Assembly (NCBI GenBank): GCA_013824085.1
Contig: PNNF01000002.1
Location: forward strand, 62,001-126,000
DNA: 64,000 bases
Source: Chlorobiaceae bacterium
GTDB lineage: Bacteria; Bacteroidota; Ignavibacteria; Ignavibacteriales; Ignavibacteriaceae
Direction of reading: 5' to 3'
The position numbers were made by a program, and so were the translations under genes. A model generated the notes under the pieces. It made no database searches and was not told the origin of the DNA. It saw nothing but the letters and a program-made list of their open reading frames with translations. This document shows positions 10,148-12,609 of the stretch, in pieces. The first letter of the stretch is position 1. Every line of letters starts with the position of its first letter.

Positions 10148-10168
10148 AACCCCGAATAAATCGGGGTT
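10148..10168. terminator. bidirectional intrinsic terminator
   Basis: A perfect 8-bp stem, AACCCCGA (10148-10155) with TCGGGGTT (10161-10168), and a five-base loop. Read on the - strand it is followed by a clean run of Ts, from the A run at 10144-10149. On the + strand the tail TTAAATAATTT is weaker. It sits between convergent genes, so it can stop both the pterin operon and the - strand Spy-like gene. Confidence 0.88.
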
Positions 10169-10625: not shown

Positions 10626-10664
10626 AACGTATTCCTTTCATTTAATCGATTGATTTGAGGATTG

Positions 10665-10692
10665 GACAATAATCATTTATTTTTGGTTTAAA
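10665..10692 (-). promoter_or_regulatory. predicted ECF-sigma promoter of the Spy-like gene
   Basis: Read on the - strand: TTTAAACC (10692-10685), 17 bases, then GTC (10667-10665) within GTCCAATC. AAC-type -35 and GTC-type -10 boxes are typical of ECF sigma promoters. The same boxes at the same spacing lie upstream of the sigma gene on the other strand. Confidence 0.68.
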
Positions 10693-10730
10693 CAAATTTT
10701 GTATTAAAAAAAATGACCTTTTCTTCAATA

Positions 10731-10758
10731 TTTAAACCTATTCCATTTAATTAATGTC
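10731..10758 (+). promoter_or_regulatory. predicted autoregulated ECF-sigma promoter
   Basis: TTTAAACC (10731-10738), 17 bases, then GTC (10756-10758) within GTCAAATC. Box sequences and spacing match the opposing promoter at 10665-10692. The ECF gene starts at 10783, leaving a short leader. The likely reader is the sigma factor encoded directly downstream. Confidence 0.7.
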
Positions 10759-10782
10759 AAATCGTTAAGAAACTACTAAAAG

Positions 10783-11949: not shown

Positions 11950-12429
11950 ATGAAAAAAATATTTTTCTTAATATTTATAATTATTTTCGCTACTGTTTCG
12001 GTTGAAGCACAGCAGAATAGAAAAAAACAGCAGAAAGAAGGATTGCGAAAAATTGAAGAACTTGAAAAAATAAGATTAATTGAAAATCTAAATCTTAGCG
12101 AAGAAAATGCGATTAGATTTTTTTCAAGAAGAAATGATCACCAAGACAAAATTAGAGAGATGAATAATCAGATTCAAGATTTACTTCTAGAGATGAAATC
12201 TGAAATCGATGATGGCAAAACTTCAAATCTTAAAAAACTTACTGATGATTATTTAAAGATGAATAGTGCAATTCAAAAGGAGAGAGAGAACTTTATTCTT
12301 TCGCTTTCCGATATCTTGACTCAAGAGCAAGTTGCAAAATTTTTAATATTCCAAAAAAAATTCAGAGATGAGATCCAAGAGCTGCTACTTAAAAACCGTA
12401 AAAAAGAGAGAAGACAATTTCAAGAATAA
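11950..12429 (+). CDS. periplasmic Spy/CpxP-like stress protein
   Basis: A 159-residue protein with a clear signal peptide (KKIFFLIFIIIFATVSVEAQ) followed by a highly charged helical body with LNLSEENAIRFF and, near the end, LTQEQVAKFLIFQ. This is the paired LTxxQ layout of the Spy/CpxP group, repeated in the divergent gene at 10176-10625. It starts 8 bp after the anti-sigma gene and probably forms a three-gene operon with it and the sigma factor. It may act as a periplasmic chaperone or as a sensor that feeds back on the anti-sigma factor. Which of the two cannot be told from sequence. Confidence 0.8.
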   Translation: MKKIFFLIFIIIFATVSVEAQQNRKKQQKEGLRKIEELEKIRLIENLNLSEENAIRFFSRRNDHQDKIREMNNQIQDLLLEMKSEIDDGKTSNLKKLTDDYLKMNSAIQKERENFILSLSDILTQEQVAKFLIFQKKFRDEIQELLLKNRKKERRQFQE

Positions 12430-12484: not shown

Positions 12485-12566
12485 GCGGAGGTGGCGTAAT
12501 TGGTAGCCGCGCACGTTTGAGGGGCGTGTGAGGAAACTCGTACGGGTTCAAGTCCCGTTCTCCGCA
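12485..12566 (+). tRNA. tRNA-Leu (anticodon GAG)
   Basis: A complete cloverleaf of 82 bases: acceptor GCGGAGG with TCTCCGC (one G-T pair), a 5-bp anticodon stem CACGT/GCGTG closing the loop TTGAGGG with anticodon GAG, and the long variable arm TGAGGAAACTCGT expected for leucine. The T arm is ACGGG-TTCAAGT-CCCGT and the discriminator is A. CCA is not encoded. A strong terminator follows. Confidence 0.96.
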
Positions 12567-12577
12567 CTCTATATCTT

Positions 12578-12609
12578 CCCCTCGCGCTTTGCGGGGGTTT
12601 TTATTTTTT
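12578..12609 (+). terminator. intrinsic terminator after tRNA-Leu
   Basis: CCCC-T-CGC (12578-12585) pairs with GCGGGGG (12591-12597), with one bulged T and a short loop, followed by TTTTTATTTTTTT. It is a strong rho-independent terminator just 12 bp beyond the tRNA. Confidence 0.9.

Follow-up and report, generated by a model that had tools for sequence, protein, structure and literature searches.

In an uncultivated member of the Ignavibacteriaceae, a Spy-like gene and an operon headed by an ECF sigma factor gene face away from each other across an intergenic region that carries two closely similar ECF-type promoter motifs. This arrangement raises the question of which factor reads both motifs, and which further genes are controlled through them. 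The initial annotation of the window (the whole stretch of 64,000 nucleotides analysed here) proposed that the sigma factor encoded next to the motifs does so, and that the motif would find its remaining targets. Here, this proposal is examined by comparison with relatives of the same family, order and class, and by searches of whole genomes with the promoter motif.

Organisation of the locus

The features of the locus are collected in Table 1. The product of the divergent gene can be assigned by homology to the family of Spy and CpxP. All 22 of its 22 orthologues match LTXXQ (PF07813), and a profile built from these orthologues finds E. coli Spy (E=3e-9) and CpxP (E=1e-5) among the proteins of the PDB. 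The divergent protein is likely to be the chaperone output of an envelope-stress response.

Table 1. Features of the sigma/Spy locus, and a second divergent promoter pair elsewhere in the same genome. Positions refer to the window unless a contig is named.
Feature	Position	Strand	Remarks
Terminator-like hairpin	10148-10168	-	3' of the Spy-like gene
Spy/CpxP-family periplasmic protein, 149 aa	10176-10625	-	Pfam LTXXQ (PF07813), E=1.4e-6; predicted divergent target
Promoter D, ECF-type	10660-10692	-	TTTAAACC-N17-GTCCAATC; core TTAAACC-N16-TGTCCAA at 10662-10691; 5' of the divergent Spy-like gene
Promoter F, ECF-type	10731-10763	+	TTTAAACC-N17-GTCAAATC; core TTAAACC-N16-TGTCAAA at 10732-10761; 5' of the sigma operon
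ECF sigma factor, 185 aa	10783-11340	+	Pfam Sigma70_r2 (24-90) and Sigma70_r4_2 (123-174); TIGR02937 above cut-off
Predicted anti-sigma factor, 202 aa	11333-11941	+	Overlaps the end of the sigma gene; one hydrophobic segment, residues about 76-103
Putative second Spy-family helical-hairpin protein	11950-12429	+	Signal-like leader; predicted output or CnrX/CpxP-like regulator
tRNA	12485-12566		Directly 3' of the sigma operon
Terminator-like hairpin	12579-12597	+	After the sigma operon and the tRNA
Second divergent pair, own genome (G000)	Contig C4:74228-74337 (L244:5229-5338)		Lipoprotein and outer-membrane β-barrel, divergent

The sigma protein consists of sigma2 and sigma4 domains only; sigma3 is absent. 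The protein encoded by the second gene of the operon gave no family match in a Pfam search, and no relative in a sequence search of the PDB. Its identity emerges from comparison with sister families. The profile of the window family aligns with that of positional orthologues in sister families over 193 columns (hhalign probability 99.1, E 9e-19), and several of these orthologues are recognisable as zf-HC2 anti-sigma factors. The zinc-ligand motif H-x3-C-x2-C is invariant in nine sister-family homologues, and the orthologues at L304-L313 retain it; its ligands are absent from the window protein and from its order. With the zinc ligands gone, the window protein is classed, by homology, as an anti-sigma factor by descent and not as a zinc-binding one, the loss having taken place in its order. 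As the tRNA is placed before the downstream hairpin, some transcripts of the operon could read into it.

The third gene of the operon

The family of the third protein is less readily recognised. Profile-profile comparison links it to the divergent Spy family (probability 98.3), and Pfam gives a weak match to Metal_resist; a sequence search of the PDB returned nothing usable. The best Foldseek matches of its AF2 model (pLDDT 91.5) are to CnrX (probability 0.98-1.00, E 0.12-0.3). In a second alignment, CnrX has Z values of 9.0-9.4, at which it is tied with unrelated helical hairpins and does not stand out from them.

Two Spy/CpxP-like outputs had been proposed for the locus. Both proteins do belong to the Spy family, the third one by profile comparison, but for the latter the role of an output has a rival. 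The third protein may instead be a periplasmic sensor or feedback inhibitor, akin to CnrX or CpxP, which tunes the anti-sigma factor and leaves the divergent gene as the sole chaperone output. The third gene stays with the sigma and anti-sigma genes across the class, so that a part in sensing or feedback has to be taken seriously as an alternative: nearly all of the sister families examined co-transcribe it with these two genes, the divergent gene is missing from most of these families, and the product of the third gene is better conserved than either neighbour (mean column identity 45% vs 35 and 37%). The CnrX matches of the model point in the same direction, although the tie with unrelated hairpins weakens them, and the profile comparison connects the protein to the Spy family as well. 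The signal-like leader comes without a clear membrane anchor, and in Phocaeicola vulgatus, spy occupies the same operon position and is treated as a chaperone (PMC13114119). Taken as a whole, the sensor or feedback reading with a sole chaperone output is somewhat doubtful. The third protein may be an output or a regulator; that its gene keeps to the sigma operon throughout, and that it is the more conserved protein, speaks for some regulatory part.

The promoter pair and its conservation

The core motif of promoter D lies 36 bp from the ATG of the divergent gene, and promoter F about 20 bp from that of the sigma gene. The two promoters had been called identical, and were placed at 10665-10758. 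Their -35 boxes and spacer lengths match exactly; a single C/A difference in the -10 boxes makes "identical" a slight overstatement. Both sites are confirmed, but the range falls short by about 5 bp at both outer ends. General hallmarks of ECF systems are AAC at -35, CGT at -10, a co-transcribed anti-sigma factor and autoregulation (PMC8103513); the window motifs have AAC at -35 and CGT/GTC at -10, and precede the sigma gene itself.

The exact pattern occurs at only two places in the whole 2.65 Mb, namely D and F (control 0). Within the window, the core pattern with at most one mismatch gives three matches, two of them perfect, against 0.20 expected in shuffles, and none of 100 shuffles reaches three. 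When three mismatches are allowed across the genome, 78 matches are outnumbered by the 102 of the reversed pattern; such loose matches are therefore noise.

Of 80 genomes of the same family, roughly 66 encode a clear orthologue of the sigma factor, usually 53-68% identical, and the named relatives with the locus are Ignavibacteriaceae and other Ignavibacteriota MAGs. The four-gene layout is repeated at nearly every orthologous locus. For 40 distinct orthologous loci, sites were scored against TTAAACC-N14-18-TGTCAAA (maximum 14 positions). The best sigma-side site scores 12-14, with 13 or 14 in 34 loci, and the best divergent-side site 13-14 in 39 of the 40; on the same 14-position consensus, shuffled sequences score about 10 on average and 13 at most. 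N16 is by far the commonest spacer, and in all loci but one 14-26 bases separate the sigma-side site from the start codon; for both promoters, the inner spacing is fixed and the distance to the start codon varies little. Conservation in orthologous intergenic regions had been named as the check on the motif, and both boxes are indeed kept at nearly all 40 loci. The relatives sharpen the consensus to TTAAACC-N16-TGTCNAA. The base that follows TGTC in the -10 boxes showed no significant covariation between F and D (Fisher p=0.22).

The usual distance of 10-12 bp between the -35 boxes corresponds to about one helical turn. At seven loci (L033, L034, L038, L053, L103, L106 and L111) this gap has grown to 67-245 bp, and both promoters are retained.

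The other two families of the order have the promoter pair as well, as do two of three loci of a further family (f13). Among more distant families of the class, the three genes of the operon usually remain side by side, and the sigma promoter has drifted somewhat; the divergent Spy gene is mostly absent. Because the distant families keep the core mostly without this gene, the three-gene core appears to be older, with the divergent chaperone gene added later.

Predicted target genes

The expectation that the motif would serve as a search pattern for envelope genes is borne out in relatives. In 80 genomes of the family, TTAAACC-N15-17-TGTCAAA gives 112 matches, compared with 27 for the reversed pattern used as control; the variant TGTC[CGT]AA with N16 gives 70 against 21. 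A set of 73 sites was examined, the majority of which lie elsewhere than at the sigma locus, although a few from that locus passed the filter. Of the 73, 61 are intergenic and at most 150 bp from an ORF, most often 20-60 bp. An export-like hydrophobic N-terminus, called by a simple hydrophobicity rule and not a trained predictor, is present in 57 of these 61 downstream ORFs, compared with 69 among 158 background ORFs (p=1e-12). Of the control matches, 26 of 27 fall within genes, and not one precedes a gene.

Several classes recur among the predicted targets: outer-membrane β-barrel/TonB-receptor-like proteins with a CarboxypepD_reg domain (about 17 sites), CarboxypepD-repeat secreted proteins (about 7 sites), HlyD-type efflux adaptors (3 sites), Spy/LTXXQ proteins, lipoproteins and small sets of others.

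The window's own genome contains the perfect core four times, as two divergent pairs, and every copy is 5' of envelope genes or the sigma gene. The second pair (Table 1) separates a lipoprotein gene (EAEATEDAA...; no Pfam family) from that of an 846-aa outer-membrane β-barrel/TonB-receptor-like protein. Homologues of this lipoprotein in G057 and G058 are likewise preceded by the motif. Eight one-mismatch sites were considered as added targets and none is believable: seven are inside genes, and the one that lies 93 bp before an smpB-like gene is unconvincing.

Which factor reads the motif?

The picture that accounts best for these data is that of an autoregulated ECF sigma factor which very probably controls a small regulon of the cell envelope. 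That stress is involved is deduced from the homology to Spy/CpxP and from the kinds of predicted target, and comparative evidence suggests that it is the local sigma factor that reads D and F. Sigma-positive genomes of the order have on average 2.5 matches (0.39 in the control), whereas the four genomes of the order that lack a close sigma orthologue have almost none (0, 1, 0 and 0). The association of sigma presence with match number (p=0.002; 55 vs 4 genomes) is partly circular, since many of the matches are the sigma locus itself. In G032 and G035, the sigma gene is present and an exact site is absent.

The motif might instead be read by another of the ECF sigma factors encoded in the genome, with the local sigma gene just one target in a cascade. 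Such a reader is conceivable given about 11 ECF-like candidates found in the window's own genome by a loose look, and would fit G001, G040, G050 and G051, four incomplete assemblies that have target-type sites and in which the sigma orthologue was not found, although gaps in these assemblies may equally be the cause; in one relative (L167; G053:C81), the motif lies 108 bp 5' of another ECF sigma gene, a possible cascade. Against this, almost all genomes with the local sigma gene have the motif in front of it, the two remain associated in this sigma lineage in other families of the class, and genomes of the order without a close orthologue have hardly any matches. A cascade under another sigma factor is thus improbable.

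Most species have 9-12 bp between the -35 boxes; the gap widens to 40 bp in the window and to 53-245 bp in several other cases. As each motif remains whole whatever the length of the gap, D and F are taken as two independent promoters, and not as one palindrome. That GGTTTAA...TTAAACC should be the palindromic operator of a dimeric regulator of both divergent genes, as inverted -35 boxes one helical turn apart might suggest, is highly improbable and was rejected: the boxes lie anywhere between about 10 and 245 bp apart with both motifs intact, single copies with a TGTC box at N16 stand alone before other genes, and an operator would give the TGTC box at its fixed spacing no role.

Proposed mode of action

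For the favoured reading, in which the local sigma factor drives both promoters, the following course of events can be envisaged. At rest, the membrane-bound anti-sigma factor would hold the sigma factor; trouble in the envelope would inactivate the former and release the latter. Free sigma, together with RNA polymerase, would then start transcription at TTAAACC-N16-TGTCNAA, a step for which the conservation and position of the motif argue. Transcription from promoter F would yield more sigma and anti-sigma factor and the second Spy-like protein, providing feedback, and that from promoter D the Spy/CpxP chaperone. The same promoter elsewhere in the genome would add the lipoprotein and the TonB-type outer-membrane β-barrel; in relatives, the regulon may extend to further Spy-like proteins, lipoproteins, secreted repeat proteins and efflux adaptors.

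A more specific, and rather unlikely, version has the third protein as a sensor sitting on the periplasmic domain of the zinc-less anti-sigma factor, from which unfolded envelope proteins would titrate it away and so free the sigma factor. If this were true, the freed sigma factor would make both a new copy of the sensor and, via the back-to-back promoter, its chaperone paralogue. An ECF sigma factor would then be switched by chaperone titration, and a single protein family would supply both the sensor and the output.

Comparison with known systems

In CnrYXH of Cupriavidus metallidurans, an ECF sigma factor, a membrane anti-sigma factor and a periplasmic helical-hairpin protein are encoded together. 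The window operon also encodes a sigma factor, a predicted membrane anti-sigma factor and a periplasmic protein that is probably a helical hairpin, the fold evidence for the last being weak. Unlike in CnrYXH, the third protein has a leader and not an obvious anchor, and the comparison brought out no link to metal. The RpoE-RseA type shares with the window system a sigma factor with only sigma2 and sigma4, a single-pass anti-sigma factor, the AAC/GTC promoter logic and positive autoregulation, the latter being predicted here. The promoter consensus differs, the window anti-sigma factor is a zinc-less relative of zf-HC2 anti-sigma factors, and an RseB-like gene was not seen in the window operon.

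The divergent gene recalls the E. coli Cpx system in that it is a sequence homologue of Spy and CpxP. E. coli Spy and CpxP are stated to be regulated by the two-component systems CpxAR and BaeSR (PMC13114119), whereas the Spy-like gene of the window stands behind a predicted ECF sigma promoter.

The nearest published parallel is CirY/CirZ/Spy of P. vulgatus, an ECF sigma/anti-sigma pair co-transcribed with spy; deletion of the anti-sigma gene raises expression of sigma, spy and two neighbouring genes (PMC13114119). By its gene content, the window locus is a module of the same kind in another lineage. Both have an ECF sigma factor, an anti-sigma factor and a Spy-like gene in one operon, autoregulation and a small regulon, and Spy as an envelope chaperone, the last three being predictions for the window locus. 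The likeness is drawn at the level of operon and regulon. A divergent Spy gene and a promoter motif, both present in the window, are not described in the portions of the CirY/CirZ/Spy account considered. The targets differ as well: as reported there, they are two adjacent cell-wall genes in P. vulgatus, whereas the window system is predicted to serve a TonB-type outer-membrane protein, lipoproteins and others.

Biological significance

Searches of the literature on this little-cultivated phylum brought up no paper that deals with ECF regulation. The present analysis yields a sigma/anti-sigma pair together with its promoter consensus, and predicts targets in dozens of genomes. What it adds to modules of the CirYZ-Spy kind is a further Spy gene in divergent orientation, a promoter motif with a defined consensus and a wider set of predicted outer-membrane targets; it also provides a clear case of zinc-ligand loss within an anti-sigma lineage. 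Control of Spy-type chaperones by ECF sigma factors, recently shown in gut Bacteroidales, may thus be wider, and possibly old. For a little-studied phylum, the result is a testable map of a possible response to envelope damage.
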